A stretch of DNA of 44,240 bases from Bacteroidota bacterium (GTDB lineage Bacteria; Bacteroidota; Bacteroidia; Bacteroidales; JABHKC01): the NCBI GenBank assembly GCA_018692315.1, contig JABHKC010000035.1:1-44240 (forward strand). The letters run 5' to 3'. The notes beneath the pieces were generated by a model. The model worked only from the letters and a program-made list of their open reading frames with translations. It was not told where the DNA came from and did no database searches. The translations under genes and the position numbers were made by a program. Positions 1,626 to 44,240 of this stretch are shown here, piece by piece. The stretch's first letter is position 1. Each line of letters opens with the position of its first letter.

Positions 1626-1659
1626 CTTTATATTTTTTATTTATTATTTTTTTTTATTG

Positions 1660-1677
1660 TCCTGATAGCTATCGGGA
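1660..1677. repeat. Small intergenic palindrome between nqrE and nqrF
   Basis: TCCTGATAG is followed directly by CTATCGGGA, an 18-base palindrome with one imperfect pair, which would be a G-U wobble in rightward RNA. It is followed on the + strand by seven T, giving a terminator-like look, but only the leftward nqr transcript is expected here. It may be a copy of a dispersed palindromic repeat; this cannot be tested from one window. Confidence 0.45.
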
Positions 1678-1714
1678 TTTTTTTGGATTATTTATACCTT
1701 AATTTATTCAAAAC

Positions 1715-2335: not shown

Positions 2336-2355
2336 ATCGTTTTTTTATTATTCGT

Positions 2356-2985: not shown

Positions 2986-3028
2986 TTTTATTTTGGATTT
3001 ATATTAGTAAAATTGAAATTTTATAATC

Positions 3029-3748: not shown

Positions 3749-3752
3749 TTTA

Positions 3753-4907: not shown

Positions 4908-4961
4908 TTTATATTGATTATTTTATATTTACTTTTTTTCGATTGATAATTGATAATTCTC

Positions 4962-4975
4962 CCAATATCTATTGG
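4962..4975. repeat. Short palindrome in the nqrA-nqrB gap
   Basis: CCAATA, a two-base spacer, then TATTGG form a perfect 6-base inverted repeat in the 85-base spacer between nqrA and nqrB. No T-run follows on the transcribed strand, so it is not a clear terminator. It could be an mRNA stability or processing element; this is weak evidence. Confidence 0.3.
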
Positions 4976-4992
4976 TATTATAATTATGAAAC

Positions 4993-6342: not shown

Positions 6343-6675
6343 TTTTTTTATATTAATTTCAATACAATTGCAAAAGTATATTATTTTTATTGTTGCACAA
6401 AAATATATATATCAGTTTTTTTTAGTTTTTGGTATTGTTTTACCGAAATCCCATATTATCAATTCGTTAATATGTTAATATATAGATATTTTTATAATTC
6501 AATTTGTGCTGTAGAACATAAAATATTTGTTTGTTTTTTTTCAAAATAATAGTTAATTTTTACTTTTTATATTAAAATAAAATCTTGAAAGTTTTAATGT
6601 TATAGGATTTCAAAAATATTATATCGAAAAACTACAAATTTGTTTATGTTTGATTTTTATTTTTTTGTAAAATTT
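6343..6675. other. Divergent intergenic region (nqr operon / plug gene)
   Basis: Very AT-rich 333-base spacer between two outward-facing genes. On the minus strand it holds the nqrA promoter (6371-6401). On the plus strand TATGTTTG at 6645-6652 fits the Bacteroidota -7 box (TAnnTTTG), but I see no matching -33 TTTG at the right distance. No other structure was recognised. Confidence 0.6.
6371..6401 (-). promoter_or_regulatory. Bacteroidota sigma-AB-type promoter for nqrABCDEF
   Basis: Read on the minus strand, TTTG (6401-6398) is separated by exactly 19 bases from TACTTTTG (6378-6371), matching the Bacteroidota primary-sigma consensus TTTG-N(about 19-21)-TAnnTTTG. Transcription would begin roughly 20-25 bases before the nqrA ATG. 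No operator was recognised. Confidence 0.7.
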
Positions 6676-8664: not shown

Positions 8665-8727
8665 ATGAAAAAATCTACATTATTAATTATTCTAATTTGG
8701 TTTGCGATTAGTGCAAATCTTGATGCT
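8665..8727 (+). other. Sec signal peptide of the giant protein
   Basis: Residues 1-21: two lysines, a hydrophobic core LLIILIWFAI, and a cleavage site L-D-A before Q, the common Bacteroidota pattern of Gln at +1. It directs Sec export to the periplasm, the first step for T9SS substrates. Confidence 0.85.
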
Positions 8728-11700
8728 CAATCTCTTTCAGGAACTTACACTATTGGTGGCTCAAATCCGGATTATGCAACTATCTCAGCAGCGGTTACAG
8801 ATTTGACCACAAACGGGATTTCAGGAACCACAACTTTTAATATCCGAACAGGAACCTACAACGAGCAAGTTTCTTTAGATACAATTATTGGAGCATCTGC
8901 TAACGACACAGTGGTTTTCCAGTCAGAAGCAGGTGCACAAGTTATTATGACATATGAACCGACAGGCTTCGAAGATAATTATGTTGTAAAATTTAATGGT
9001 GCTGATTATGTTACTTTCAAGGATATGACATTAATTAGTACAGGCACCACAGGTAAAAGCTATGTTTTCAATTTTCAAAATGGTAGTGAAAACATTACTC
9101 TTGAAAATGATTCAATTATCGGAACTTCAAATGTTGATATACAAGATGGAATTTATCATGCTGTTATCTATTTAGATGGACAAAATTATAATATTGCAAT
9201 TAGAAATAATACTATTCTGAATGGATCTTATGGAATCTTTAGCCGTGACGTAATAGGACTTAATATCTCCAATAATACAATCAATAACTTTTATCAAGGT
9301 GGAATATGGATTTCCGATCAATTTAATGGGCTGGATTCAATTGTGATTAGTTCAAACGAATTGTATTCGAGGACATTTGCAACCGTATTTGGTATATATA
9401 TTGATTATAGTGGTAGCAATTGTTTGATTGTTAATAACATGATTCAAATGAATGCTTTAAATAGAAACTCCGGAATGCTTTTAAGCAATTTTTCTGGAAC
9501 CTCTGGAAACGAAATATTAATCTCCAACAATATTATTTCAACCAAAAATGCAACTTATTATTCAACCTCACTTGCTAGAGGCTGTGTTCTATCTTCATGC
9601 AGTTATGTAAAAATATTCTATAATTCAATTAACATAACTGATGGAATGTCAACCAATACCTATGCTTGTTACTTTAGTAGTTGCACGGATATTGATTTAA
9701 AGAACAACAATTTCGTACTTGATGGTTGCGATAATGGCTATTCCATTTACAATTCTGGCTCAACAAGTATCACAAGCGATTATAATAACCTTTACTCAAC
9801 AGGAACAAATCTGGGATACTGGAATGCTGATGTTATAGATTTATCGGCATGGCAAACAGCAAGCAGTTTAGATGCTAATTCTTTGTCAGTTGATCCATAT
9901 TTTGTAAACGATACTAATCTTCATGCACGATCAATTTATTTAGATAATGCCGGAACACCAATCTCATCTGTTTCAACCGATATTGATGGCGAACAGAGAA
10001 GTACTACAAACCCTGATATTGGAGCTGATGAATTTACAGGTATCGATTTAAGGCTTGCAGGAAATTATACCATCGGCGGTACAAGCCCCGATTACACAAC
10101 AATTTCGGAAGCAGTGACATATTTGACAAGTTTTGGAATTTCAGGTACTGTTAGTTTTAACATCCGCACGGGAACTTACAATGAGCAGGTTTCAATTGAC
10201 TTGATTGCTGGAGTATCTTCAAATGATACAATTGTTTTTCAATCGGAAACAGGTGCAGATGTAACAATGACCTACGAACCAACAAGTTCAGATAATTATA
10301 TTGTTAAGTTCAATGGATGCGATTTTATTTCATTCAAAGGAATTACATTTGAAGCAACTGGAACTACAAATGGAGGGATATTTGATTTCAGGGATGGTTC
10401 GGATTATATTACAATAGATAGTAATGAAATCTATGGCATAAATATTAGTGGCAATTCATCTACCAATACAATTATACATGCCCAGCCGCCCCATACAAAT
10501 GGCAATATAAGAATCATAAATAACGACATCTATTATGGAGCCTATGCAATAGACTTCCCTGGTGATATTGCCAATAATTGCAGCAACAATATTATTTCAA
10601 ATAATATTATTCGAGACTTCAATTATTATGGAATAAAAGTTCACAATCAGGATTCTATGACCATATCTGGAAATCAAATAATTGCAAAAAAAACCGGAGG
10701 ATACGAAACCCAGTATGGTATAGAATTTAAAGCTTCAAATGGAGAGAATATTATTTCGTCAAACGAAATCGTGCTCTATGGAAGTAATTGGAACACTGGT
10801 ATGAGTTTGGACTTGAATAATAGTCTAAGCGGAAGCGAAAATTTTGTTGTGAATAATACAATATCCTGCCAAAACGCATCCAATATTACTTGGGGAATGT
10901 TAGTTAGCGCAAAGTACACAAATATCTATTACAATTCAATTAATGTTCTTGATGGTAATGCCTCTTCAAGCGCAGCATTTTACCTTAATCAAGTATCAAA
11001 TACTAATATTAAAAACAATATCTTTGCTTTCACATCAGGATCAAATAGTGGGTTTGCCTTTTATAACGACAATTCATCAAATTCGTTTATAAGCGATTAT
11101 AACGATCTGTACTCGACAGGAACAAATCTGGGCTATTGGAATGCTAATGTAGCAGATTTATCAGCCTGGCAAACTGCAAGTGGTTTGGATGCAAACTCAG
11201 TTTCAGCAAATCCTTTATTTGCTGCAGATACAAACTTACATGCAAATTCTCCTGCCTTAGATGGTCAAGCTACACCAATAGCTTCAATCACTTTAGATAT
11301 CGACGGAGATATCAGGGATGCAACAAACCCGGATATTGGAGGTGATGAATTTACAGTTGTTCCTTTAGCAGGAGGTACATACACTATCGGTGGTACAAAC
11401 CCGGATTATCCAACAATTTCAGATGCTGTAAATGATCTAAAAGTAAAACCTATATCTGGTCCTGTGAGCTTCAATATCCGTACAGGAACCTACAACGAGC
11501 AGGTTTCAATAAAAGCAATTTATGGAGCTTCGACTACAAACACGGTAACTTTTCAGCCCGAAACAGGTGTTGCTGTTACGATGACCTACGAACCAACATA
11601 CACGAACAATTATATTGTTCAGTTCGACGGTGCCGATTATCTTACATTTAAAAATATGACATTTACTGCTACAGGAACTTCATATGGTCGGGTTTTCGAT

Positions 11701-14700
11701 TTTGAGGATGGAAGCCATTATATTACTCTTGATAGTAATGTTGTTAATGGAATTAGTACGACTTCAACAAGTGACGATTTGGCTGTAGTTCACTCAATGT
11801 CAGGTACTGAAAATGACTATATTACAATTTCGAATAATGAAATTAACAATGGTTCATACGGTATGTGCATATACGGAAGTAGTATGTCAAATTTGGAATT
11901 GGCAAATATCATTGAAAATAATATTATTCAGGATTTTCATTATTATGGAATGTGTTTATATTATTTCGATTCGCTTTTGCTTTCTTCAAATGAGATTTAT
12001 GCAAAATCGACTGGTGGTAATAGCTTACAATTTGGAATTGAAGCCGGCTTTTGCTATAATAGAAGTTTGGTTTCAAAAAATAAAATTCGTGTTAACTCAA
12101 CATCAAATAATCAAGGAATATATTTGTCTAGTTTTGATGGAACATTGGGCAACGAAAATCTGGTAATTAATAATTTCGTTTCCTGCCACAATTCAAGTTC
12201 GTCTAGTCATGGAATTTGGGCTAGCAATTGCAGTTATATAAAATTCTACTACAATTCTATAAATATTACTGACGGGGATATAGATGGAAAGGCTTTCATA
12301 GCAAGCTTTTGCGGTAATATTGAGCTGCAAAACAACATTTTAGCAAACACCAAAACAGGAGGTGGATATGCAATATATACTGAAAACACATCAACTTTCT
12401 CTAATAGCGATTATAACGATTTATATACAGAAGGTACTTTTCTTGGAAGATGGTATAATACTTATTGCACTGACTTATCTGCATGGCAATCAGCAATCTC
12501 AAAAGATGCCAACTCAGTCTCTGCCGATCCTTTTTTCGAATCGGATACAAACCTACATGCCAACGCAGTATCTTGCAACAACACGGCAACACCAATTGCC
12601 GGAATCACCGAAGATATAGATGGCGAAAGTCGCGATGCTTCGACACCTGACATTGGTGCAGACGAATACTATATTACACCACTTTCCGGAATTTACACCA
12701 TTGGTGGCACAAATCCCGACTATGCAACAATAGCTGCAGCAGTAAACGATTTAGGAATAACATCTATTGATGGACATGTTTATTTTAATATCCGCACAGG
12801 AACCTACTACGAGCAGGTTTCTATTGAAAGAATCTGGGGTGCAAACGAATCGAACACAGTAACTTTCCAGCCCGAAAGCGGTGCAAGTGTAACAATGACC
12901 TTTGAACCAACAAGCACAGACAATTACATCGTTCAATTCGACGATGCCGATTATGTTACTTTTAAAAACATGACATTTACAGCTACCGGAACAGATTATG
13001 GAGGGGTTTTCCTTTTTAATGATGGAAGTAACTGTATTACACTTGACAGTAATATTATCAACGGTATTAGTACAACATCAACAAGTGGATGCGAAGTATT
13101 AAGTTCTGCTAATTCAAGTGAAAACAACCATATTACAATTTCAAACAATGAAATAAATAATGGTTCGAATGGAATATATCTGGAAGGTGAAAGTCTATCA
13201 AATCTTGAAGAAGGAAATGTTATTTTCAATAATACCATTCAGGATTTTCATTTTTATGGAATGATTCTAATTTCTCAAGACTCTATTTCAGTTTTATCTA
13301 ACACAATAATTTCTAAATATAGCGGTGGATATTCCACACAATATGGAATTTCTGCTAGCTATTGCGATAACAATTGCGATTATAGTAATAACGTTATTAT
13401 CATGAAAGCGAGTTCAATCAATTATGGAATGTATTTCCACTACTGCGAGGGTACATCGGGAAATGAAAATCTTGTTTCGAACAATTTTATTTCAACACAA
13501 AATTCTACATCAACAACAAAAGGAATTTTTTTGGGGAATAATAAATATACAAATATTTATCACAACAGTGTAAACATTACAGATGGTAATACTTCAAGTA
13601 GTGCATTTTATAATGAAACGAGTTCAAGTATTTTTTTGAGAAATAATATTTTTGCAAATACAAAAACTTCCGGTGGATATGCAATTTACTATTATAATAC
13701 TTCCAGTATCCATAGCGATTATAATTGTTTATTTACCGAAGGTACAAATCTTGGCTATTTGGGAGGCAACCGTACAACATTAGCACAATGGCAATCATAC
13801 AGTGTAGATGCTAACTCCGTTTCAGTCGATCCATTCTTCGAATCGGATACTAATTTGCATGCAAACGCTGTTGCTTGTAATAATACAGCAACTCCTATTG
13901 CCGGAATCACCACAGACATTGACGGAGAAGCCCGCGATGCCTCAACTCCTGATATGGGGGCAGACGAATATTACATAACACCACTTGCCGGAACTTACAC
14001 CATTGGTGGCATAAATCCCGACTATGCAACAATAGCTGCAGCAGTAAACGATTTAAGAATTACACCAATTGATGGTCATATTTACTTTAATATTCGCGAC
14101 GGTGTATATAATGAGCAGGTATCGATTGAAAGAATTTATGGAGCAAGCGAATCAAATACTGTAACTTTCCAACCTGTAACAGGAGCTTCGGTTACTATGA
14201 CTTACGAACCAACAAGCTCAGACAACTACATTGTTCAGTTTGACGATGCCGACTATGTTACCTTTAAAAATATGACATTTACTGCAACAGGAACAGACTA
14301 TGGTAGAGTTTTCGATTTCTTAGATGGTAGCCATTATATTACTATTGATGGCGATACGATAAATGGAATTTATACAAGCTCCTTTGCACATTTTCTTGCT
14401 GTGATTTATTCTAATTCAGGAACAGAAAACAATCATGTTTCAATTACAAATAATAAGATTAATAATGGGTCATATGGATTATATTTCGCTGGAATTGGTA
14501 CATCAGATTTTGAAACAGGAAATTTAGTTAGTAATAATGAATTTATTGATTTTAACTATTCTGGCATATATCTATATTGTCAGGATTCAATCAATGTAAA
14601 TTCAAATAATATTTATGCAAAATCTAGTGGAGGAAATAGTTCACAATACGGACTTAATGTATCTTATACAGATAATTCAAGTATATTTTCTAAAAACAAA

Positions 14701-17700
14701 ATCAGAGTAAATGCTACAGCTTCGAATTATGGAATATCTCTGAATAATTGTGATGGAACTTCAGGAAATGAAAATCAAATTGTAAATAATCTTATTTCCT
14801 GCCATAATTCGAGTAATACAAGCTACGGTATTAATATTTCATCATGTACTTGGCTAAATATCTATTATAACTCTGTAAATATTACAGATGGAATTTCTCC
14901 TTATAGCTCTGCTATGTATGCTCCTAATGGTAGCAATATAGAAATACAAAACAATATTTTTGCCAATACCAAATCTTCAGGTGGAGGATATGCAATTTAT
15001 ACATATAGCACTACAAATATTACCCTAAGTGATTATAATGATTTATATAGCGAAGGTACTAATCTTGGAAAATGGTATAATACTAATTGCACTGACTTAT
15101 CTGCATGGCAATCAGTCAGTTCTAAAGATGCAAATTCAATTTCCATTGACCCAATGTTTACATCGGATACCGATTTGCACACAAATGCATTGCAATGCTA
15201 CGGCACAGCAAATCCAATAGCCTCGGTAACCGATGATATCGATGGTGAACTACGTGAAGCTTTGACACCTGAGATTGGAGCTGATGAGTTTGAACTAACA
15301 TCATTGGCGGGTACTTATACAATTGGAGGAACAAATCCTGATTTCACATCAATTGCCGATGCAGTAAACGAACTAAGAATAAAACCTATTTCTGGCAATG
15401 TTATATTTAATATCCGAACAGGAACCTACAACGAACAAGTTTCCATTGAGACAATTTATGGAGTTTCGGCTACAAACACAGTAACTTTCCAGCCCGAAAC
15501 TGGAGCCTCGGTTACAATGACATACGAACCAACAAGTACAGACAACTATGTGGTTCAGTTCCATGATGCAGACTATGTTACTTTTAAAAATATGACATTT
15601 ACGGCTACAGGAACAGATTATGGACATGTTTTTGATTTCAAAGATGGTAGCAATTATATTACCCTCGATAGTAATATTATTAATGGAATTTACATAAGTT
15701 CGACAAATACTAATTTCGCTACATTATATTCTAGTGTAAATACTGAAAACGACCATATAACAATTACAAATAATGAAATTTATTATGGATCATACGGAAT
15801 GTACCTGTATGGTATGAACGCAGCAAATCTTGAAGAGGCTTGTGTAATCAGCAATAATACGATACAGGATTTCCATTTTCATGGAATGTATATCCAATAT
15901 TTCGAGTCGCTACAATTAAGCTCAAATGAGATTTATGCAAAAACGACCGGAGGAAATGATACGCAATATGGTGTTTATGCAGCAAATTGTGATAATGGAA
16001 GTGAGTTTACAAAAAATATAATCAGGGTAAATGCTACTAATAGTAATTATGGTTTGTATCTCAAATATTGCGACGGACCAGCCTATGATAGAAACCATAT
16101 AATCAATAATTTCATTTCATGTCACAATTCATCCACATACAGTTATGGAATTTATTCTAATAGCAACACTTACATTAATTTCTATTACAACTCGGTAAAT
16201 ATTACTGATGGTAATTCATCGTATGGAAATGCATTCTACGCAAATAGTGGAAATAACATCACTTTGCAAAACAACATTTTTGCAAACACCAAAACTTCGG
16301 GTGGTTATGCTATTTATACAAACGGTGGTTCGAATATAATAGCCAGCGACTACAACAATCTATATACAGAAGGCACATATCTTGGATATTATTGGACAGG
16401 TAATAGGACAGATTTATCAGCATGGCAATCGACAAGTAACAAAGATGCAAACTCAGTTTCGGTAGATCCTTTTTTCGAATCGGATACAAATCTACATGCC
16501 AACGCAGTAGCTTGCAACAACACAGCAATACCTATTTCAGGAATTACAGAAGATATTGACGGAGAAGCAAGAGATGCTTCAACTCCAGATATGGGGGCTG
16601 ATGAATATTACATAACACCACTTGCCGGAACTTATACCATTGGTGGAACAAATCCCGACTATGCAACAATAGCTGCAGCAGTAAACGATTTAAGAATAAC
16701 ACCAATCGACGGACATGTTTATTTTAACATTCGCACCGGAAACTACAACGAGCAAGTCTCGGTAGAAAGAGTCTGGGGTGCCAGCGAGGCAAACACCGTA
16801 ACTTTCCAGCCAGAAAGTGGAGCAGATGTTACAATAACTTACGAACCAACAAGCTCAGCAAACTATGTTGTTCAGTTCGACGATGCCGATTATCTTATTT
16901 TCAAAAATATGACATTCACGGCTACGGGAACATACAACGGTAGAGTTTTTGATTTTCTTGACGGAAGTCATAATATTACTCTTGATAGTAATATTATTAA
17001 TGGTATTAGTGCAACATATACAAGTACGAATTTGGCTGTTATTTATTTGGCTTCTTCAACCGAGAATAACCATATTACAATTTCTAATAATGAAATCAAC
17101 AATGGTTCATATGGATTATACTTATTTGGAACTAGTACTTCAAATCTTGAACAGGCTTGTGTAATTAGCAACAATATAATTCAGGATTTCCATTCTTATG
17201 GAATGTATTTATATAATCTGGATTCAGTTGTTGTAAGTTCAAATCTTATTTCGGCTAAATTGACAGGTGGAAATAGTACCCAGTATGGAATTTATGCCCG
17301 ATATTGCGATAATGGAAGTGAGTTTTCTAAAAACAATATCAGAGTATATGCTAGTACAACAAATTATGGAATGTACATATATAACTGTGATGGGACATCA
17401 GGAGATGAAAATCATATAGTTAATAATTTTGTTTCAACACATTATTCCACCGGCACATCTTACGGAATTTATTCATATACAAATATTTACACCAATTTTT
17501 ATCACAACTCTGTAAATATTACAGATGGTAATTCTTCAAGTTATGCGTTTTATAATTATACAGGTTCATATATTGTATTGAAGAATAATATTTTCGCTAA
17601 TACGCAAATTTCAGGAGGTTATGCAATTGGTAACTATAATACTTCCGGTATTAGCGAAAGCGATTATAATTGTTTATATACTGAAGGTACTTATCTTGGA

Positions 17701-20700
17701 TATTGGTCAGGTAGCAAATCAACTTTAGCTAATTTTCGATCTGCGAGCGGAAAAGATGCAAACTCAGTTTCTGTAGATCCATTATATGTTAGCGATACCG
17801 ACTTGCATGCAAGAGCTAACGATATTGACAGTGCTGCAATATTCATTTCTGCATATACAGAAGATATTGATGGAGATAGTAGAAATTCCACATATCCCGA
17901 TATTGGAGCAGATGAGTTCGATTATCTCAATTTTTCTTTTGCAGGAGTTTATACTATTGGAGGAACAAATCCCGACTTTCTAACTGTAAAACAAGCAGCC
18001 AATGACTTGTACAAATATGGAATGTCGGCATCTGTAACATTTAATATCCGTACAGGAACCTATTACGGACAATTTATAATCCGCAATATTCCAGGCGCTT
18101 CTGCTACTGATACTGTTGTATTTCAGGCAGAAGACGGAGCCGATGTAACAATTACTTTTGAACCTACTATGATATTCAATTATGTTGTTCAGTTTGATGG
18201 GGCAGAATATGTTACATTTAAAAATTTAACCTTTACTGCTACAGGAACAAGCTACGGTTATGTTTTTGATTTCGAAGAAGGATGCAATTATATCACTCTT
18301 GATAGTAATATTATTAATGGTATTGTTACATCATCAACAGATTCAAAATTAGTAGTATTACATTCTGCTCCATCAGCCGAAAACGACCATATAACAATAA
18401 CAAACAATGAAATAAACAATGGTTCGTCCGGAATGTCCTTTAATGGCACTACATCAAATCTTAAAGAGTTTTATTTAATTAGCAATAATACAATTCAGGA
18501 TTTCCATTGTTGTGGAATACATCTATCTTATTTTGACTCAGTCCAGGTAAGATCAAACGAGATATATGCAAAAACAAGTGGAGGAAATTCTGAACAATCT
18601 GGAATTTCTGCATTTAATTGCGATAATAACAGTAATATTTTAAAAAATAAAATCAGAGTAAATGCCACTTCAACAAACACAGGTATATATCTAAACTACT
18701 GCGACGGAACATTAAGTGATAGATTTTTAGTTGCTAACAATTTCATATCATGTCACAATTCAACATCATTCAGCTATGGAATATATTCTTTCAATAGTAA
18801 TTATCTGAATTGTTACCACAATTCTATTAATGTTACTGATGGAACGTCTTATGGTGGGAGAGCAATGTATTTAAACGGAGGTAGCAATATTGAACTTTTG
18901 AATAATATTTTTGCAAATACTTCAGAAGGTTACGCCATTTATACATCTAGTTATCCAAACATATCGGTAAGTAATTATAACAATTTATTTACTGAAGGTA
19001 CAAATATTGGATACTGGAATAGCTCAAATCACATATCATTATTTGATTGGCAAAGAAATACAGGTAATGATGTCAACTCAGTTTCAATCGATCCGTTTTT
19101 CGAATCGGATACTAATCTGCATGCAAATTCCGCAGGTTGTAACAACACTGCAACTCCAATTTCAGGAATAACTGATGATATTGATGGAGAAACCCGAGAT
19201 ACCTTAACTCCTGATATAGGTGCAGACGAATATTACAAAACTACACTTTCAGGAGTTTATACAATCGGTGGTGCAAATCCCGACTATGCAACAATTGCTT
19301 CAGCTGTAAATGACTTAAGAATTAAACATGTAAATGGGCATCTATATTTTAATATTCGTGATGGCGTTTACAACGAACAAGTTTCAATAAAACGAATTTG
19401 GGGAGTAAACGAAACGAACACTGTAACATTCCAACCTGAATCTGGAACTTCGGTTACGATGACTTACGAACCAACAAGCACAGACAATTATATTGTCCAG
19501 TTTGATGATGCAGATTATGTAATATTTAAAAATATGACTTTCTGTGCAACGGGGACAACTTTCGGACGAGTTTTCGATTTCCTTGATGGTAGCAATAATA
19601 TTACCATTGAAAATGACACTATAATTGGTCTTTCTACCTCTCTTCCTAGTGATTGGTGTGCAGTAGTATATTCCGGAGATCAAACTAGAAATAACAATAT
19701 AAATATCCTTAATAACGAAATTATTAATGGTTCAATTGGAATAAACTTTCAAGGATATCATACTACTATACCTGATGTCTCAATCAGAATTTACAACAAT
19801 CAGATATATGATTTTTCAGCATATGGGATTAGAATTGTATATCTTGATTCAGTTAATATTTGTTTGAATGAAATGTATTCAAAATCAAATGGCGGATACT
19901 CAACACAATATGGTATATATTGCTCGGGCTGTGATAATTCGTCTATAATTTCTAGGAATAAAATCCAGGTAAATGGAAGTTCGAGTAACTATGGCATGTA
20001 TTTTCACGCTTGCGATGGTATTACGGGCGACGAAATTTTGGTTGCTAACAATTTTGTTGTAACAAAAAATGCAACTTCTACGGTTTATGGAATTCATCCT
20101 ACTTCAAGTACTCATTTTAAAATATATCATAATTCGGTAAATGTAACAGATGGAAGTACATTCAGCTCTGCATTATATGTAGCTAATGGAAGCAACTTCG
20201 ATGTTCAAAACAATATTTTGACAAATACCAAATCTTCCGGTGGAGGCTATGCTATTTATACAAATTCTACTACAAACATTTCTGTATGCGACTATAACGA
20301 CCTTTATAATGAAGGCTCTTATCTTGGGAAATGGGGCACTTCGAATAAAACAGATTTAACTGCATGGCAATCAGCAAGCAGTATGGATGCCAACTCAGTT
20401 TCAGTGGATCCATACTTTGAATCGGATACAAATCTGCATGCAAATGCAATAGCTTGCAACAATACTGCAACTCCTATTGCCGAAATTACTGAAGACATTG
20501 ACGGAGAAGCCAGAGATGCCTCAACTCCTGATATGGGGGCTGATGAATATTATATTACACCACTTTCAGGAATTTATACCGTTGGTGGCACAAATCCTGA
20601 TTATGCAACTATTGCACTTGCCGTAAACGATTTAAGAATTAAACCAATCGAAGGCCATGTATATTTTAATATTCGCGATGGTGTTTATAATGAACAAGTT

Positions 20701-23700
20701 TCAATAAGTAGAATTTGGGGAGCAAGCGATTCTAATACCGTAACTTTCCAGCCCGAAAATACCGATTCGGTAACAATAACTTACGAACCAACAAGTACAG
20801 ATAATTACATCGTTCAGTTCGACGATGCCGATCATGTTACTTTTAAGAATATGACTTTCACTGCAACAGGAACTTCTTATGGTAGAGTTTTCGATTTTCT
20901 TGACAACAGCCATTATATTACACTTGATAGTAATGTTGTTAATGGTATTGTTACAACAGCAACAGGTCTCAACTTAGCAGTAATTCACTCAGCTTCATCT
21001 ACAGAAAACGACCATATAACAATTTCAAATAATGAAATAAATAATGGTTCGTACGGGATGTACCTGTATGGTAAGAGTACATCAGATTTTGAAGAGGCAT
21101 GTGTAATTAGCAATAATACGATACATGATTTCCACAATTATGGAATCTACATCCACCTTTTCGATTCACTCCAATTAAACTCTAACGAGATATATGCAAA
21201 AACAACAGGTGGAAACAGCATACAATATGGAGTTTATGCACATTCATGCAAAAATGGAAGTGAGTTTACAAAAAACAGAATCAGGGTAAATGCCAGTTCT
21301 GAAAACTATGGTTTCTCTCTCAATGCTTGTAACGGAACATCAGCAGAAAAGAACCAGGTAATCAATAATTTTATCTCCTGCCATAATTCAAGTTCAATAA
21401 GCTATGGAATTTATTCAAATTCAAATAGTTATAATGATTTTTATCACAATTCGATAAATGTTACCGATGGTAGTTCATCAAGTGGAAGAGCATTCTGCGC
21501 TATCAGTGGAAGTAATATCACTTTGCAGAACAACATTTTTGCAAACACCAAAACATCGGGAGGTTATGCAATTTATACAAACAGTACTTCAAATATTACA
21601 GCCAGCGACTATAACGATCTATATGCCGAAGGCTCATATCTTGGATATTGGTATAATTCTAATAAATCAACTCTGGCACAATGGCAAACAGCAAGCTCGA
21701 AAGATGCAAATTCAGTTTCAGTAGATCCTTTCTTCGAATCAGATACAAATCTTCATGCCAATGCAGTAGCATGTAACAATACGGCAACACCAATTGCAGG
21801 AATCACTACAGACATTGATGGCGATGCCCGCGATGCCTCAACTCCGGATATGGGTGCAGACGAATACTATATTACACCACTTTCAGGAATTTACACAATT
21901 GGTGGAACAAACCCCGATTATGCTACTCTCACAGCAGCAGTAAACGATTTAAGAATCACACCAATAGATGGACATATTAATTTTAATATTCGCACAGGAA
22001 CCTACAACGAGCAAGTTTCGATAGAAAGAGTCTGGGGTGCTTCGGAATCGAACACCGTAACTTTCCAAGCAGAAACAGGAGCAGACGTAACAATAACATA
22101 CGAGCCAACAAGCTCAGACAATTATGTAGTTCAGTTTGACGATGCCGATTATGTTACTTTTAAGAATATGACTTTCACTGCAACAGGAACTTCTTATGGT
22201 CGTGCATTTGATTTTAAAGATGGCAGCCACAATATTACACTCGACAGTAATAATGTAAATGGAATATCAACAACATCAACAAGTGCGAATGTGGCAGTAA
22301 TTTATTCAGCAAGTGGAACTGCGAACAATAACATTTCGATTACAAATAATAATTTCAATTACGGTTCATTTGGAATTTATCTAAGTGGAACAAGTACTTC
22401 AAATCATGAAACAGGAAATGTAATTACTAATAATACTTTACAAGATTTTCATCAAAATGGAATGATCTTGTTTTATCAGGATACAATTAATATTTCTTCA
22501 AATATTGTGTATGCAAAAGGTAGTGCCGGAAATAGTACGCAATTTGGAATTCAGGCAATCAGTTGCGATAATTCTAGCTCTTTCTCAAAAAATAAAATCA
22601 GGGTATATGCCAGCTCGACAAACTATGGATTATATTTAAGCGCATCCGACGGAACTTCCGGAAATGAGAATCTAATTGCTAATAATTTTATATCATGCCA
22701 TGGTTCTGGCACAAATAGTTATGGAATTTATACCACGTCCAGCAATTATTTGAACTTATATCATAATTCTGTAAATGTTACAGATGGCAGTAGTTCAAAT
22801 GGATATGCATTAAATCTCAATTCCGGCAGTAACATAGAACTACAAAACAACATTTTTGCAAATACCAAAACCTCAGGTGGTTATGCTATTTATACAAACA
22901 GCACATCGAATATTGTTGCAAGCGATTATAACGATTTATATACCGAAGGCTCAAATCTTGGATATTGGTCAGGTAACCGTACAACTTTGGCTAATTGGCA
23001 ATCATATAGCGGAAAAGATGCAAACTCAGTTTCAACCGATCCGTTTTATGTTTCTGATACCGATTTGCATGCAAGATCTTCTGTAGTTGATAGTGCTGCA
23101 ACACCAATGGTTGAAATTACTGATGATATTGATGGCGACGCCCGTGATGCAACTTATCCTGATATGGGTGCCGATGAGTTTGATTATGTAGATCTGACTA
23201 TGGCAGGATTATATACTATTGGAGGAACAAATCCTGATTTTACCTCAATACTCTCTGCGGTAGATGATATCGTACGTTTTGGAATATCCGATTCGGTAAT
23301 ATTTGAAATTAGAGAAGGAACTTATATCGAACAGGTTTCTATTGAAGATATTCCTGGTAGTTCGGTGAGTAATTATGTTGTTTTCAGGCCTGAAAATACC
23401 GATTCAGTAGAAATGACTTACACACCAACAAGCACTGATAACTATATAGTTCAGTTCGATGGTGCCGATTATGTTACATTCCAAAATATGACATTTACGG
23501 CTACCGGAACATCATACGGAAGAGTTTTCGATTTTAAAGGTGAAAGCCACTATATAACAATAGACAGCAGTATTATAAATGGAATTAGTACAACATCAAT
23601 AAGTACAAATTTATCGACAATATATTCCGCTTCTTCAACCGAAAACGACCATATCACAATTTCAAATAATGAAATAAATAATGGCTCGTACGGAATGTAT

Positions 23701-29700: not shown

Positions 29701-32700
29701 GGCGAAATCAGGCATTCCACAAATCCTGATATTGGTGCAGACGAGTTTTATATTACACCTATGTCAGGCGATTATACTATTGGAGGAACTAATCCTGACT
29801 ATGCAACAATTGCTGAAGCAGTCCACGATTTGAATACCAGACCTGTTGAAGGAGATGTAAATTTCTTTCTGAGAGATGGAACCTTCAACGAGCAGGTTTC
29901 TATTGGAAGAATCTACAATTCGGCCAACTTCAATGTTATTTTCCAACCCGATATTAATGCAAATGTTAATATTACATTCGAACCAACCAGTTCAAACAAT
30001 TATATTGTTCAGTTCGACGATGCCGATTATGTTACATTCCGCGATATTACTTTCGTGGCAACAGGAAGTTCATATGGTAGAATTTTCGATTTAAAAGATG
30101 AAAGTCATAATATTACTATTGAAGGAAACTTTTTAAACGGAATTAGTACAACATCTACCGGTGATAATCTTGCAGTTATTTATTCGGCAAGCGGAACAGC
30201 CAACAATAATATAGTTATAAACAATAACTTCATTGTTAATGGCTCATACGGATTATATCTATATGGAAAAAGTACATCTGATCTTGAAACAGGCTGTGAA
30301 ATTTTATACAATAGTATTCAGGATTTTCACTATATGGGTTTATATACCTATTCGTTCGATTCAATTGTTGTTAATTCTAATCAGATTTATGCCAAATCTA
30401 ATGGGGGATACAGTACTCAGTATGGAATATATGCTACATATTGCAAACATGGAAGTATTTTCTCTAAAAACAAAGTACAGGTAAATTCTACATCTTCAAA
30501 CTACGGTATAAACTTAACCCATTGCGATGGAACTTCAGGCGAAGAAGTTTATCTTACAAACAATTCTGTATCATGCCACAAAGCAAGCTCAAATAGTTAT
30601 GGATTGTCTTTAAATTCCTTGGATCATACAAAAGTTTATTTTAACTCGATAAATGTTACCGATGGAAGTAGTAGTGGAGGAAGAGCAGTATTCATTAGTT
30701 CAGGAAGTAATATCGATTTGCAAAACAATATTTTTGCAAATACTAAAGAGAGCTCCGGAGGTTATGCAATTTACACAAGCAGTACAAGTAATATTTCGGT
30801 AAGCGATTACAATGACCTATATACAAATGGCACGTATCTGGGATATTGGTACAATTCATACAAAACCAATTTGGCACTATGGCAATCGGCAAGCGGAAAA
30901 GATGAAAATTCAATTTCGGCCGATCCATTATTTGTTTCCGATTCTACATTGACACCTCAATCGTTTAAGTGCGACGGACAGGCAATTCCAATTGCAGCTA
31001 TAGCTGACGATATAGATAATGTTGTGAGAGATGCTTCAAATCCTGACATTGGAGCTAAGGAGTTTTCAACTACATCGCTTGCAGGTACTTATACAATTGG
31101 CGGATTAAATCCTGACTATGCAACAATTAGCGAGGCTATTGCCGATATTAACAGTAATGCTGTTTCTGATAGTGTAACTTTCCTAATAAGGACAGGAACC
31201 TACAATGAGCAATTAAGCATTCAGAAAGTATATTACACCTCGAGTTCTAAATCTGTTACATTCATGCCAGATACATCAGCAGAAGTTACTATTACATATG
31301 AACCTACAAGCTCCGACAATTATATTGTTCAGTTTGATGACGCTGATTATATTACTTTCCAAAATCTTACATTCACAGCAACTGGTACTTCATATGGTAG
31401 AGTTTTCGATTTTCTTGACGAAAGCCATAACATTACTATTCAAGGAAATACGATTAATGGTATAAACACTACATCTTCAAGTACAAATACTATTGTATGT
31501 TATTCAGCCTCAGGAACCTCAAACAATAATATCACAATTTCTGACAATGATATTAACTACGGTTCATATGCAATCTATTTATATGGAACTAATTATACTA
31601 ATCTGGAAAATAACAATGTTGTTATAAATAACACAATTCATGATTTTAGCTATATGGGATTATACTTCTACGGTCAGGATTCTATTTCAATCAGTTCTAA
31701 TGAGATAATAGCTAAAACCAGTAATGGATACAGTCATAATTACGGTATTCATTTGACCTATTGCGACAATGCGTGTAATATCTCCAAAAACATAATAAAA
31801 CTGTTTGCAAGCTCTTATAACTATGGCTTATACATGTATTATTGTGATGGAACTTTAGGAAACGAAATTATTGTATCAAACAATTTTGTGTCAAATCACA
31901 ATTCAGGTAGTACAAGCTATGGAATTTTCCCTACAAGTTCCAATTATATTAAAATATATTATAATTCAGTGAATGTTACAGACGGCAGTTCTAGTGGTGG
32001 TAGTGCAATCTATGCAGCAAGCGGAAGTAATATTGAACTTAAAAACAATATTTTCGCAAATACGCAGGATTACCAGGGTGGTTATGCAATTTATTCAAAT
32101 AGCACAAGCAATATTATATCAAGTGATTATAATGACTTTTATACCGAAGGCACTAATCTTGGATATTGGACGGGAAATAGGACAAATTTGGCACAGTGGC
32201 AATCGGCAAGTAGTAAAGATGCAAATTCTGTTTCCTCCGATCCATGGTATCTTTATTATACAGATTTACATGCACGCTCATCAGTTGTTGATAGTACAGC
32301 AAATCCAATTGCATCCATTACAACTGATATTGATGGTGATGCAAGAGATGCGAATTATCCAGATATTGGTGCCGACGAGTTCGATTATGTTGACATTTCC
32401 CTTGCAGGAATTTATTACATTGGCGGAGAAAATTATGATTATCCTACAATTGCCGATGCTGTAAACGACCTTAACCGTTTTGGTGTATCCGATTCGGTTG
32501 TGTTCCGTATCAGAACAGGAACATACAACGAGCAGGTTTCTATTAAAGAAATACTTGGTGTTTCTGCTACATACTATGTAGTTTTTGAATCTGATACCAG
32601 CGCCGAGGTTACTATATCGTATTCAGGAACCAGTACGCACAACTATCTAGTACAATTCGATGGTGCCGATTATGTAACTTTCAGGAATCTTACTTTAACG

Positions 32701-35700
32701 GCAAACTCTGCCTCTTACGGTAGAATTTTTGATTTGCTCGACGAAAGCCATCATATTACTATTGATGGAAACACACTAAATGGATACGCAACTACATCAA
32801 ATAGTGTAAATCTAGCAGTGATTTACTCAAGTTCATCAACAGACAATGATAATATTACAATCACAGACAATGAGATAAATAATGGCTCTTATGGGATTTA
32901 TCTTTATGGAGTTGGTACTTCCAACTATGAAGAAGCCTGCATTATCTCAAACAATATTATTCATAATTTCTACTATCAGGGAATATATTTATATTATTTT
33001 GATTCTCTTGAAATTAGCTCAAATGAGATTTACGCAAAATCGAGTGGTGGATATAGTTATCAATATGGTATATATGGTTCTTATATTAATAATGCAAGTT
33101 TAGTTTCGCTGAACAAGATTCGAGTAAATGCCAGTTCATATAATTATGGTATATATTTGTCCAATAGCGATGGAACATTGGGTAGTGAATGTGAGCTAAT
33201 CAATAATTTCATTTCAACCCATAGTTCATCATCTACTACATATGGTATCTATTTTACAGCTAGCGACTATTGGAATTTACAATATAACTCTATAAATATT
33301 AGTGATGGAAACACTTCGAGTAGTGCATTATATTTAAACTCTGGCAGCAATTTTAAGTTACAGAATAATATTTTTGCAAACACAAAAACTTCCGGTGGTT
33401 ATGCTATTTATACAAACAGTAGTTCTAATATTTTAGTTAGCGACTACAATAATTTATATGCCGAAGGTTCATATCTTGGCTACTGGTCAGGAATTCGCAC
33501 AAATTTATCTAACTGGCAATCAGGAAGTGGAAAAGATGCTAATTCTGTTTCTTCCGATCCTTTGTTTATTTCAGAAACAGACCTTCATTCATTTTATGTT
33601 GGAAACAATGGACAGGCAATGCCAATAGCAGGTATTACCGACGATATTGATAATGAAACGAGAGATGCAGTGAATCCCGACATTGGTGCCGATGAATTCT
33701 CGCTTGCACAAATGGCCGGTGTTTATACTATCGGTGGAGTAAATCCCGATTTCGAGACCTTCACAGAAGCTGTAGCAAATGCCTACTATCAGGGAATTTC
33801 CGATGATGTAACTTTCAAAGTCCGAACAGGAACATACAACGAGCAAATCTCAATTGGTATTATCTATGGAGTTAATGATACAAACACCGTAGTTTTCGAA
33901 CCTGATACCAATGCAGTTGTAACCATAATTTATGCTCCTACAAGTTCTAAAAACTATGTAGTACAATTTGATGGTGCCGATAATGTTACTTTCAGAAATT
34001 TAACACTTACTGCGACAGGCAGTTCCTATGGTAGAGTTTTGGATTTTAAGGACGGTAGCCATAATATAACAATTGAGGGTGATACTATAAATGGATTAGA
34101 TGTTGCATCAACTAGTAGTAATATTGCAACAATTTATTCCGGACCAGGAACATCCAATAATAATATCGTTTTCGCAAATAATGATATTAATTACGGATCG
34201 CATAGTTTCTGTTTCTACGGGACTAATACTTCTATTTTGGAAACCGGAAATGTCATTTATAGTAATACAATTCAGAATTTTTATTATTATGGTGTCAGAC
34301 TATACTATCAGGATGCTATTACTGTTTATGAAAATGAAATATATGGAGAAACAAGTAATACTTATAGCACGCAGGTAGGAATTGAAGCATATTATTGCGA
34401 TAGTTCTAGTGTATATTCAAAAAACGATATAAAAGTATATGCTTATAATTATAATGTTGGATTATACATTCTCAGTTCCGATGCAAGTTCAGGAAACGAA
34501 ATTGTTGCAAAAAACAACTTCATCTCATGTTTTAATTCAAGCTCTAATAGTTATGGAGTTTATTATACTTCAAGTAATTATGTAAAATCATATAATAACT
34601 CTGTGAATGTAACAGACGGGAATTCATCATATGGCTATGCAGCATACACTACCAATGGAAGCAATATTGAATTTAAAAACAATATTCTCGCAAATACGAA
34701 AACTTCAGGTGGCAAGGCTCTTTATACAAATAGCACTTCGAATATTTCTGTCTGCGATTATAACGACCTGTTCACAAAAGGTAGTTATTTGGCATACTGG
34801 GGAGGAAACCGAACCAATCTTTCTGCACTGCAAAGCTACACTGGTAAAGACCAAAATTCAGTTTCTGTAGATCCATATTTTGCAGCCGATACCAACCTGC
34901 ACTCATACTCGCAATATTGCAATGATGCAGGAACACCTATTGCTGAAATAACTACTGATATTGATGGCGAAGCACGTGATGCTACAAATCCGGATATTGG
35001 TGCGGATGAATACACCATTGTTCCTCTCGAAGGAATTTACACAATTGGTGGCTTAAATCCCGACTATGAAACTATTGCCGAAGCTGTTTTCGATTTGAAA
35101 ATGTTGCCGGTAGCCGATTCAGTAATTTTTAGAGTCAGAACAGGAACCTACAACGAGCAAGTTTCTATTGTTGATATTAACGGAGCTTCGGAAACGAACA
35201 CTGTTACATTCGAGCCGGACGATACTGCTTCGGTTACAATAACATACGAGCCAACCAGCTCAGATAATTATATTGTGCAGTTCGATGGTGCCGATTATGT
35301 TACATTTAAAAATATGACATTTACGGCTACCGGAACAAGTTATGGACGAGTGTTTGATTTTAAAGATGGAAGCCATTATATTACTCTCGATAGCAATACT
35401 ATAAATGGTATTGTTACAACAGCAACGGGTCTCGGCTTAGCAGTAATTCACTCAGCTTCTTCTACCGAAAACGACCATCTAACAATTTCGAATAATGAAA
35501 TAAATAATGGTTCGTATGGATTGTATCTGTATGGTAAGAGTACATCAGATCTTGAGGAAGCTTGTGTAATTAGCAATAACACGATACATGATTTCCATAA
35601 TTATGGAATCTACCTCCACTCTTTCGATTCACTCCAATTAAGCTCAAACGAAATATATGCAAAAACGACAGGTGGAAATAGCACGCAATATGGTGTCTTT

Positions 35701-38700
35701 GCACATTATTGCGATAATGGAAGTGAGTTTACAAAAAACAAAATCAGGGTAAATGCCACTTCTACAAACTATGGTTTGTGTCTCTATTATTGTGACGGAA
35801 CATCCACAAATAAAAACCAGGTAATCAATAATTTCATTTCATGTCACAATTCACCCTCATACAGTTATGGAATTTATTCTAATAACAATATTTACATAAA
35901 TTTCTATCACAACTCGGTAAATGTTACCGATGGTAATTCATCGTATGGATATGCATTCTACGCAACTAGTGGAAATAACATCACATTGCAGAACAACATT
36001 TTTGCAAATACGAAAACATCGGGAGGTTATGCAATTTATTCAAACAGTACCTCAAATATTTCTGCAAGCGATTATAATGACTTATATTCTGAAGGATCAA
36101 ATTTGGGATACTGGTCGGGAAATAGGATAGATTTGTCGGCATGGAAGACAAGCAGTGGTAAAGATGCAAACTCAGTTTCTTCTGATCCGGGTTTTGCTTC
36201 CGACACCAACCTTCATGCCTATGCAGCAGCTTGCGACGGGCAGGCAATTCCAATTGCAAGCATCACCGACGACATTGATGGAGATGTACGCGATGGATCA
36301 AATCCCGACATCGGAGCTGATGAATTTGATGGAACACCTCTCGCTGGAGTTTATTATATTGGTGGCACAAACCCCGATTTCAATTCAATTGGCGAAGCTG
36401 CAAAGGCTGCTGAATACATGGGAATTTCCGATTCGGTTATTTTCAGACTTAGAGGCGGAACATACAACGAACAAGTTTCGATTAGTACTATTTACGGAGT
36501 CTCAGAAACCAAACAAGTAATTTTTGAGCCTGATAGCTCTGCAGAAGTTATAATTAGCTATGCTCCTACAAGTTCTGAAAATTATATTGTTCAGTTCGAC
36601 AATACCGATTATATTACTTTCCGTAATCTTACTTTCACAGCTACCGGTTCTACCTATGGTAGGATATTCGATTTCGAAGACGAGAGCTACAACATAAGTA
36701 TAGACGGAAATACTCTGAACGGATTAAATAATAATTCAACATCTCATTATTCTGTCATAATTTATTCTGCAACCGCCACTTCAAACAATTCAATTACAAT
36801 AAGCAATAATACTTTAAATTATGGTTCTTTCGGATTGTATTTATATGGGACAAGTACATCAGAGCTTGATTCAGGACTTACTATTAGCGGTAATACAATT
36901 CAGGATTATCATTATGCGGGAATATACCTGCGTAATCAAGAATCAGTTTCTGTTATTTCTAATATTATTGCAGCTAAAACAAGTGGTGGATATAGCTCAC
37001 AATATGGATTGCATTTATCATATGTTGATAATGGAGGTGTAATTTTAGGAAATAAAATCAGTGTGACTGCCGGTTCATACAATTATGGTATTCGTTTATC
37101 TTATTGTGACGGAACTTCTGGTAACGAACTTCAGTTGATAAACAATTTTGTTTCTAATAAAAACTCGGGTTATGTAAGCTATGGAATTTATTCTGACTAT
37201 AGTAATTACATACATTTTTACAACAATAGTGTAAATGTAACAGACGGAAACTACTATAGTGGAAGAGTGCTGTATCTGGTAAATGGAAGTAATATTTCGC
37301 TGCAAAATAATATTCTGGCATTTACAAAATCGAGTGTTTACGGATATACTATTTACACAAATAGCACATCGAATATTACTGCCAGCGATTACAATAATTT
37401 ATATACCGAAGGATATTATGTTGGATACTGGAGCGGATCACGTTCTACTCTAAGCAACTGGCAGTCGGCAAGCGGAAAAGATGCAAATTCTGTAACTCAC
37501 GATCCATATTTTGTTTCCGATACCGACCTACATTCTCAATCGGTAGCCTGCGACGGTCAGGGAAGCCCAATTGCATCAGTAATAGAAGATATTGATGGAG
37601 ATGTGAGAGATGCTACTAATCCTGATATGGGTGCCGACGAGTTTGGTATTACACCACTTGCTGGAGCTTACACCATTGGCGGTACAAATCCCGATTTTGC
37701 TACAATCACAGATGCTGTTTATGCACTTGAAATCAGGCCGGTAGCCGGAGAAGTTACATTTAATATCCGCACAGGAACTTACAACGAGCAGGTTTCGATA
37801 TCTACAATTTACGGAGTTTCTGAAATAAATACCGTAACGTTCCAGCCCGATACTTCTGCAAATGTAAGCATCTCGTATGCACCAACATATTATGAAAATT
37901 ATGTTGTGCAGTTCGACGGTGCAGATTATGTAACATTCAAAAACCTTAGTCTTGCATCTACAAGCTCATCTTATGGCAGGGTATTCGATTTTAAAGACGG
38001 TAGCAATAACATTAATATTGAGAATAATGTGATAAGTGGCGTAAGCACCACATCTACAAGCAGTAATATGATCCTGTTGTATTCAAATTCCGGAACAAGT
38101 AATAATAATATAATAATTGATAATAATGCATTCAATTATGGTTCATATGCCATATATATGCAGGGTTACAATTCATCAAATCCTGAGTCAAACAATATTA
38201 TTAGCGGCAATACTATTAGTAATTATCATTACATGGGGATATTTATCTATTATCAGGATACTCTTACTATATCTTCAAATACAATAAGGGCTAAAGAAAC
38301 AGGAGGCTATAGCTATAGTTATGGTATTTATGGATACTATTGTCAAAATTCAAGCGAATTTTCGAAAAACGATATAAGGGTAAATGGAACTTCTTCTAAT
38401 TATGGCTTGTACCTGTATAATTGCGATGGAAATTCAAATGATAAAACTTTAGTTAGTAATAACTTTATTTCTACAAATAATTCTAGTTATTACTCATATG
38501 GAGCATATATATATAATTGTGATTATATTGACATTTATAATAACACAATAAATGTAACAGATGGATACTATTATCACTATTCAAGTGCTATTTATTTATA
38601 TTATGGAAGTAATATTGAATTACAAAATAATATATTTGCAAATACCAAAGGTAGTTCTTATGGTTTAGCAATTTACACTAGTTCTAGCACGAATATTATT

Positions 38701-41700
38701 AGTAGTAACTACAATAATATTTATACAGAAGGTTCTTATCTGGGATATTATTCAGGATACAGATCAAATATTGCAAACTGGCAATCGGTTTCCGGGCAGG
38801 ATGCGAATTCATTTTCTGTAAATCCATATTTTCTGTCGGATACTAACTTACATGCTGTTTCGCTTGAAGGAGATGGAACAGGAAACCCAATTGCAAACAT
38901 TACAACTGATATTGATGGTGAAATACGTGATGCTACGAATCCTGATATAGGTGCCGATGAATATTCTATCACATCACTTGCAGGTGTTTACACTATTGGC
39001 GGTACAAATCCTGATTTTGCAACTATTACAGATGCAGTTTTTGCATTACAAACGAAAGGTATATCGGCAGCAGTTAGCTTCAATATTCGTAGCGGAACAT
39101 ATAACGAACAAGTCTCGATAAGCCAAATTAGAGGCTCGTCGGTAACTGATACTGTTACTTTCCAGGCAGAGGATACTGCTCAGGTGGTAGTTACTTATAC
39201 ACCAAGCTCAGTGGAGAATTATATCTTCGGCTTAAATGGTGGTGACAATGTTGTAATTCAAAACCTTACACTCACAAACACTGGTAATTATTACAATGGA
39301 GCATGTGTAAACTTTGGCGATGGAAGCAATAATATAGTTATCAGAAATAATACTCTAAATGGTTCTGATTATGGCTACACTTATCATACTTCGAGTCCTA
39401 TTTTATCAGAAAGCTCTGCTTCAAACGACAGTATTTCAATAATAAATAATACTATTAATAATGGCTCGTATGGTATATATTTACAAGCAGAAAGTCAGAC
39501 AAATCCGGACAAAAATCTTGTAATTAGTGGAAATACTATACAAAATTTCCATTATCGAGGAATTTATATTCTATGGCAAGATTCTTCTTTGATTGCTACA
39601 AATAGTATTATCGGAAAAACGAGTGGTGGCAATTCCACACAAGTTGGAATTTATGCTTATATGTGTGATGGTTCTGTGCGTATTAGCAGAAATAATATTG
39701 AGATGTATGCAAGTAATAATAACACAGGAATAAAAATTGATCGCTCTTACGCAACTTTAGGAACGGAGAATATTATAGATAATAATTTTGTTTCATGTCA
39801 AAATGCAAGTACGGCTAGTTTTGGAATCTATAATGTATATTGTAATTATTTAAAGATATACAACAACTCAGTTAATATTACTGATGGGTATAGTTCAAAT
39901 TCAAGTGCAATGTATATTTACGGAGGTAGTCATTATATCACCATTCAAAATAATATTTTTGTAAATACCACTTATTACGGTTTTGCATTTTATTTCTACA
40001 CAATAGGTAATTACTTGATTGATAATAATGATTTGTACACAAGCGGGAATCATTTTGCTTATTGGTCAGGCTACTATTCAAATTTGGCCAACTGGCAATC
40101 GGCAAAAGGAGTTGATTCGAATTCAATTTCAGTTGATCCGGTGTTTACTTCTGCAACAGATTTGCACTTGCTGACAGATGCCTGTAATGGATTAGGACAA
40201 CCAATAGGTGTTATTAGTGAAGATTACGACGGTGAAATAAGAGATGCCACTAATCCTGATATTGGTGCCGATGAATATACAATTACTCCACTTGCCGGAA
40301 TTTATACAATTGGTGGTATAAATCCCGATTTCGAAACTCTAAGTACTGCTGTTTTGGCTCTTCACACAAAAGGTATATCTGCTGCAGTAACTTTCAATAT
40401 CCGTGAAGGAACTTACACCGAGCAAATTTCTCTTGACGATATTCAAGGTTCGTCAGCAACAAATAGTGTATCATTCCAGTCAGAAAACGGAGTGCCTGTA
40501 ATAATTACTTATCCACCTACTAGTACCGACAATTACATTGTGCAATTCGATGGCGCCGATAATATTGTTTTCAGTGATCTTACGCTTACTGCAACAGGAA
40601 GCTCATTTGGACGAATATTCGACTTTAGAGATGGCAGCGATAACATTACCATTGATAATAACATTATCAACGGTTTAAATCTTAGCTCAACCAGTTCTTA
40701 CATTATTCCAGTTTACTCCGAATCTGGAACAGGTAATGATAGCATTACAATTTCGAACAATATTATCAATTATGGTTCATATGGTTTATATCTGAATGGA
40801 ACTAATAGCTCGAATTTGGAGTCTGAAATGTTAATTGTTAATAACACTATTCAGGATTTCTATTACGAAGGAATGTACTTGCGTTATCAGGATTCTGTGC
40901 TTGTCTCTGGAAACTCAATTTTAGCAAAAACAACAGGCGGATATAGTACTCAATACGGTATTTATGCGGCAAACTGCGATAATAGTTCACAGTTTACCGG
41001 AAATACAATCAGACTTTATTCAAATAGCAATAACTACGGAATCTATCTATATTACTCAGATGGTACTTCGGGTGAGAAGATCACAATTGATAATAACTTC
41101 ATCACCAGTCATAATGGTGGCTCTACAAGTAGAGGTATTTACACAAATTACTCAAGCTATCTGAATATCTATTTCAACTCGGTTAATATTACCGACGGGT
41201 ATAGTTATTATTCAGCCGCATGTTATTTTGAATACGGAAGTAACATATCACTTCAAAACAACATTTTGGCAAGTACTAGTGCTTCGTCTGCAGGATATGC
41301 AATTTATACCAATAGCAGTTCTAATATCATTGCCAGCGATTATAATGATCTCTTTACTAATGGTAATTATCTCGGATACTGGTCAGGATCTCGTGCAAAT
41401 CTGGCAAACTGGCAGACGGCTAGCGGAAAAGATGCTAATTCTGTTTCTGTTAATCCATTGTTTGCCTCAGATACAGATTTGCATACATATGCTCTTGCCT
41501 TAGACGGAACAGCAAATCCAATTGCTGGTATTACAACAGATTTTGATGCGGAAAACAGAGATGTCTCAACGCCTGATATTGGAGCCGATGAGTTTGAAAT
41601 TACTCCTCTTGCAGGTATATATTATGTTGGTGGAACCAATCCCGATTTTGCTACAATTTCCGATGCCGTCTATGCTCTAAGCGTGCGACCTGTTGCCGAT

Positions 41701-44240: not shown

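Follow-up and report, generated by a model that had tools for sequence, protein, structure and literature searches.

The locus analysed here raises the question of whether one bacterial polypeptide can really consist of 26 whole beta-helix domains joined in tandem and, if so, where such a chain would be placed, what it would do and how it came about. The window, i.e. the whole stretch of DNA that we analysed, is 44,240 bp long and is identical with the complete contig JABHKC010000035.1 (C35) of a Bacteroidota genome. The original prediction was of a single ATG-started frame reaching the window edge with 26 complete beta-helix domains, in a polypeptide of more than 1.2 MDa, and on both points it was borne out. 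The frame comprises 11,858 codons from the ATG at position 8665 (11,871 if counted from stop to stop), has no stop codon, carries 26 units and is open at the 3' contig end; the visible protein without its first 23 residues has a computed mass of 1.29 MDa and a pI of 4.2. We rejected a chance open frame, since the remaining five frames hold 548-1214 stops each and an equally long stop-free run would arise with a probability of about 10^-393 at the base composition of the contig. Because the window is the whole contig, the C-terminus of the protein is missing: the gene is visible only as its 5' part, and the rest lies beyond the contig end. The visible part is organised as follows.

8665-44238, + strand: giant open reading frame, 3'-incomplete at the contig end (frame scan)
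8665-8730, + strand: likely Sec signal peptide, residues 1-22 (MKKS...LDAQ; read by eye)
8734-42930, + strand: array of 26 directly joined beta-helix units (patterns, profile, fold)
8734-10053, + strand: beta-helix unit 1
10054-11367, + strand: beta-helix unit 2
11368-12681, + strand: beta-helix unit 3
12682-13983, + strand: beta-helix unit 4
13984-15303, + strand: beta-helix unit 5
15304-16620, + strand: beta-helix unit 6
16621-17937, + strand: beta-helix unit 7
17938-19245, + strand: beta-helix unit 8
19246-20562, + strand: beta-helix unit 9
20563-21879, + strand: beta-helix unit 10 (structure predicted)
21880-23199, + strand: beta-helix unit 11 (structure predicted)
23200-24510, + strand: beta-helix unit 12
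24511-25824, + strand: beta-helix unit 13
25825-27135, + strand: beta-helix unit 14
27136-28446, + strand: beta-helix unit 15
28447-29760, + strand: beta-helix unit 16
29761-31077, + strand: beta-helix unit 17
31078-32400, + strand: beta-helix unit 18
32401-33711, + strand: beta-helix unit 19
33712-35025, + strand: beta-helix unit 20
35026-36339, + strand: beta-helix unit 21
36340-37656, + strand: beta-helix unit 22
37657-38976, + strand: beta-helix unit 23
38977-40290, + strand: beta-helix unit 24
40291-41607, + strand: beta-helix unit 25
41608-42930, + strand: beta-helix unit 26
42931-43815, + strand: fibronectin-III-like region, outer bounds approximate (PF00041 stretches)
43867-43959, + strand: SprB repeat 1 (45.2 bits, cut-off 28)
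44083-44181, + strand: SprB repeat 2 (46.9 bits, cut-off 28), with the contig end 59 bases further on

A relaxed start pattern, a relaxed end pattern and a profile built from the units themselves each recovered 26 units in the frame, 434-441 residues long and arranged head to tail without a spacer. At the protein level the units share on average 55.5% pairwise identity (range 39-77%), and at the DNA level unit pairs are 52-77% identical. The characteristic ending DIDGxxR...DIGAxE, predicted for every unit, does occur 26 times in relaxed form, but in literal form DIDGxxR is found only 20 times and DIGAxE only 17 times. In at least 25 of the 26 units, 72 of 439 positions are kept, 30 of them Asn or Gly and none Lys, and a ladder of conserved Asn residues runs through all 26 units at a spacing of 23-30 residues. 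PF13229 matched in the four stretches of the frame that were scanned (30.2, 34.3, 66 and 35.1 bits; cut-off 25.9).

An array of this kind could also have been produced by the assembly, if repeat copies had been falsely expanded or joined; the genome (G000) is a draft of 248 contigs (4.98 Mb), and C35 ends within a repeat array. However, the longest exact repeat in the frame measures 50 bp, with none found in a test at 55 bp, and the units differ from each other by at least 23% at the DNA level. In addition, two other contigs of the same genome, C108 and C7, share an exact overlap of 141 bp, so that the assembler words were probably near 141 bp and shorter repeats were presumably resolved. Misassembly of the array is thus unlikely, and we consider false expansion or joining of copies extremely improbable. 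We also compared 61 distinct unit pairs (60 sampled and four chosen, three of which had already been sampled) and found dN values of 0.17-0.57, with dS of at least 0.85 in 58 pairs and saturation in three. There are signs of purifying selection on the units in these values, with dN/dS being a rough measure since dS exceeds 1 in most pairs. To judge by its sequence, the array seems genuine and constrained.

The proposal that the units are beta-helical was confirmed at the level of predicted structure. A model of two adjacent units, 10 and 11, based on an alignment of the 25 pairs in the window (mean pLDDT 86.7, pTM 0.61, weak at residues 386-438), yielded right-handed beta-helices, each beginning with a strand, then a capping helix and about 13 coils. 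The predicted units thus appear to be complete, capped right-handed beta-helices, albeit with about 13 coils (strands of the model counted by eye; Asn spacing of 23-30 residues) instead of the roughly 16 first proposed. Among the structure matches listed for a single unit the best was the NosD R-domain (7osf; Z 31.5 over 312 residues at 3.0 A), and the AlgE6 A-module (5lw3) aligned with Z 31.1 over 323 residues at 2.8 A. Both share the right-handed parallel beta-helix fold with the C35 unit but are single domains, with 15% and 12% identity to it, respectively, and their function is not transferable. A sequence search of solved structures with a 10-unit profile gave no match at E <= 0.1.

Among the structural matches listed, many are beta-helix proteins that act on carbohydrates, and the 72 kept positions include eight Asp, two Glu, two Arg and one His, so that an active site is conceivable. 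The protein might be a multivalent polysaccharide-modifying enzyme, with lyase, epimerase or hydrolase activity in every unit. We consider this improbable: the mannuronan C-5 epimerase signature, in the pattern used, does not occur in the frame, and the kept positions are dominated by the Asn and Gly residues mentioned above, with Lys absent. Moreover, a common fold does not mean a common function, and the likeness to PL6 and pectin-lyase-like enzymes is one of fold only.

How did the array arise? When 94 units were placed in a midpoint-rooted tree, the units of C35, of its paralogue C221 and of the sampled kin genome G463 grouped in one clade with a support of 0.999; the C35 units alone formed no clade, their common node holding four other units at a support of 0.242. 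Neighbouring units in the array are slightly more alike than expected by chance (lags 1-4, p 0.002-0.015, 2,000 permutations). The clade and the likeness of neighbours together give a pattern that fits unit duplication within the lineage of C35. The paralogous giant frame on C221 (L010; 16775-3, - strand) has 5,591 codons, also runs off the contig end and contains three MAM stretches, four beta-helix units, 28 FG-GAP stretches, fn3 and seven SprB stretches.

Searches with a unit as query matched 21 of 60 genomes among the closest sampled kin (E <= 0.001; 59 other genomes, all of the same order), 32 of 395 in a phylum sample (E <= 1e-20), 55 of 393 in an order sample (E <= 1e-40) and 33 of 395 in a class sample (E <= 1e-60); the samples overlap, and each count includes the own genome. 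In the phylum, order and class searches at most four candidates per genome were scored, so that unit counts are lower bounds and longer frames could escape. The longest other frame among the matches listed has 6,580 codons (G1031), compared with 11,871 from stop to stop in C35. One such domain per protein had been taken as the norm, which did not hold within the family: in 28 related named loci, 25 frames contained one or more near-full units and 15 of these contained two or more, with a maximum of eight; some of these frames are truncated where the locus ends.

In these relatives the units are mostly set apart. Of 40 gaps between units, 35 measure 105-115 residues, two are longer and three are direct junctions, all in locus L047. 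Most gaps share a spacer of about 111 residues (L051, L048, L050, L049, L046, L059 and others), which we aligned in 38 copies, three of them from own-genome paralogues. From its sequence we read it as a shared Ig-like domain; the one copy that was scanned had no Pfam match, and the spacer had no match in the C35 frame. By coordinates, direct runs of three or four units are also found in G463, G602, G668 and G839, with G602 and L047 probably representing the same locus because they have the same N-terminus. Direct joining is thus already present in the family, and 26 units are far beyond the other counts observed.

A close counterpart in plan is L047 (JAADHC010000055.1, from a MAG titled Chlorobiota), a complete frame of 2,519 residues: it opens with a signal-like start, continues with four direct units and five SprB repeats, and has a type A sorting domain. 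Like C35 it combines a signal-like start with the same, directly joined unit and then SprB repeats; unlike C35 it is complete and has four units instead of 26. Read from its sequence, L047 is a miniature of the C35 protein plan. When the tails of six relatives were scanned with NCBIfam models, a type A sorting domain was present in L047 and, barely, in L059 (24.2 bits, cut-off 23), and none was found in the tails of L046, L049, L050 and L051. With four of six scanned tails lacking it, the type IX route is therefore not established for the whole family. The same beta-helix unit also occurs in 1,440-codon frames of L069 and L070, from MAGs titled Lysobacterales, i.e. outside Bacteroidota, which may reflect transfer or a binning error.

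The direct joining of the units in C35 bears on a further claim, namely that the helices stack end to end into a very long fibre. At about 13 coils per unit and the rise of 0.48 nm assumed earlier, 26 units would extend for about 160 nm plus joints, so an array length near 0.2 micrometre is possible. We modelled the junction with a construct that joins the C-terminal 200 residues of unit 10 to the N-terminal 200 of unit 11, using an alignment of 75 rows (25 window junctions, three direct L047 junctions and 47 partial rows of relatives). The model was confident throughout (pLDDT 96.3, pTM 0.87, every residue at 70 or above), and the conserved tail motif therefore probably adopts an ordered structure and does not act as a floppy linker. 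None of the 50 chains listed, out of 433 aligned, fitted well as a continuous beta-helix from one side of the junction to the other: 45 listed rows spanned only residues of about 200-400 (2.2-3.6 A), with the first half barely covered, and the five that crossed it did so at an rmsd of 12.6-15.3 A.

These results can be read as a rigid coaxial fibre, in which fixed junctions stack the 26 beta-helices into one rod of about 0.16-0.2 micrometre; such a rod would be compatible with the surface role discussed below. In its favour are the ordered junction predicted from the deeper alignment, the end motif recurring 26 times and the lack of any spacer in C35, as opposed to the 35 of 40 gaps in related loci that contain one. 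Against it, units 10 and 11 both start with a capping helix in the model, the five junction-spanning matches fit poorly, the 25-row pair model reached a pTM of only 0.61 with weak residues 386-438, and the junction construct cuts both helices, whose halves may close up artificially. Caps at the ends of beta-helices are described, in the available part of the source, as preventing oligomerisation (PMC8392785). On balance we regard the rigid fibre as rather unlikely. A similarly low probability is given to the more specific idea that the conserved DIDG..R...DIGADE tail packs on the next unit, so that one chain would form a semi-rigid rod about 0.16-0.2 micrometre long, which would be a new type of surface fibre compared with Ig-like, Calx-beta and SprB-repeat stalks. 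Support for an end-to-end stack is thus limited to the ordered junction that a second model predicted, given the capped starts and the lack of a good fit across the junction among the structures listed. Rigid junctions, if present, would make the array a natural nanorod of one chain, with 26 variable faces.

The beta-helix was also expected to continue up to the window edge; instead, the last 436 residues consist of the fibronectin-III-like region and the two SprB repeats. No C-terminal sorting domain is present within the window. With the last 201 bases of C35 as query we obtained 22 matches (40 of 101 candidates scored), of which only the window itself was 100% identical. Six tail candidates were compared with 13 heads, a subset of the 248 contigs, and C35 had no end overlap with any of the contigs tested, C80 included; the only overlap was that between C108 and C7, and C7 was rejected as a partner of C35 since it overlaps C108 instead. 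Among the contigs tested, two that begin inside an SprB array come into question: C80, which ends with a type B domain (TIGR04131) adjoined by a PorP/SprF gene, and C53, which carries a type A domain. Both are possible and equal candidates for the missing end of C35, as is another contig beyond those tested. On C222, whose 5' end is cut, the end of a beta-helix unit is followed by PKD, eight SprB repeats and a type B domain, again with a PorP/SprF gene adjoining.

The genomic setting points to the cell surface. A gene for a type IX plug protein (NF052315; window 6640-8031, + strand, 429.2 bits) lies 633 bases upstream of the giant gene and in the same direction. The genome also encodes SprA (SprA_N 608.8 bits), at least 150 matches to Por_Secre_tail (type A; 150 of 390 candidates scored), 43 to CHU_C, of which 26 are over the cut-off and some lie on the same tails as Por_Secre_tail matches, and at least 150 to SprB (150 of 470 candidates scored). 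Window positions 363-6342 (- strand) hold six genes that, to judge by their Pfam matches, are a likely operon for an Na+-translocating NADH:quinone reductase (Nqr), presumably NqrA to NqrF. Considering the type IX genes, the SprB repeats and L047, the giant protein is very probably secreted and surface-attached; this part of the surface-fibre proposal stands, and the end-to-end stack is not established.

We therefore consider it likely that the protein is a giant surface adhesin or stalk, exported by Sec and the type IX system, with an array that grew within the lineage. Sec would take the protein through the inner membrane and the type IX secretion system through the outer one, after which it would stay attached to the cell surface. 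There, the 26 capped beta-helix domains could form a long acidic stalk or, alternatively, line up as modules that bind carbohydrates or surfaces, and the fn3-like domains and the SprB array would lead to a C-terminal sorting or anchoring domain encoded on the part of the gene outside C35. The array itself would have grown by in-place duplication of units. This raises the question of whether type IX export can cope with more than 1.29 MDa of beta-helix cargo.

Very long surface proteins made by Bacteroidota serve gliding and adhesion. A narrower version of the adhesin reading is that the C35 protein is an SprB-like gliding adhesin, sorted by a type B domain, served by a PorP/SprF partner of its own and transported along the cell. 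This is possible, but we have doubts. The two SprB repeats in C35 would suit such a role, as would the features of C80 and the union of beta-helix unit, SprB repeats, type B domain and PorP/SprF gene on C222. A relative of GldJ is encoded in the genome at near full length (8-553 of 559), but its 441.7 bits are below the cut-off of 458.2; C80 has no end overlap with C35, C53 with its type A domain is just as good a candidate, and L047, a relative, is also of type A. According to the accessible text of one report, type B cargo has PorP/SprF shuttles, whose genes are often neighbours, and some of its substrates are static rather than mobile (PMC12618676). SprB of Flavobacterium johnsoniae itself is described, in the part of the source available, as a type IX-exported surface adhesin of about 200 nm (PMC12635249). 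It resembles the C35 protein as a very long surface adhesin and has given its name to the Pfam repeat in C35; it differs in that no beta-helix array is described in the same text, and in C35 the SprB repeats only begin the C-terminal part.

Giant tandem-repeat proteins are already known from Bacteroidota. As far as the available sections describe it, the giant protein of Kordia antarctica has 16,944 aa, more than 100 Calx-beta domains and a gliding-associated (TIGR04131) C-terminus (PMC7477175). It shares with C35 the phylum and one domain in tandem, carries a predicted signal peptide comparable to the likely one of C35, and is larger than the visible part of C35, but its repeats are Calx-beta and not 26 beta-helix domains of about 438 residues. 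For Ca. Menyafoubacter, again in the accessible part of the source, a large protein is described that is putatively extracellular and has several CASH beta-helix domains in tandem (PMC12057145), where proteins of up to 85,800 residues are also cited. Like C35 it is large, putatively extracellular and built with tandem beta-helix domains; unlike C35 it belongs to a PVC lineage, has a polysaccharide lyase 6 domain and others, and its beta-helix domains are 'several', not 26. Judged by titles and the openings of abstracts, none of the papers listed in literature searches describes a 26-fold beta-helix array. What is unusual here is that so many whole beta-helix domains are joined directly. As C35 shows, expansion to 26 copies per chain is open to entire folded domains of about 438 residues and not just to small repeats.

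Other contigs of the same genome contain further large SprB-bearing genes. The end of C108 and the start of C7 (L089/L087) meet in their exact overlap at SprB-bearing frames and represent another split large gene, and very long SprB-bearing frames of 5,102 and 4,408 codons are found on C115 and C245, respectively. On C157 (L086, about 2-1250), a frame bearing SprB and a type A sorting domain opens with nearly identical tandem repeats, each about 51 residues long (around ICDGESYF; length counted by eye).
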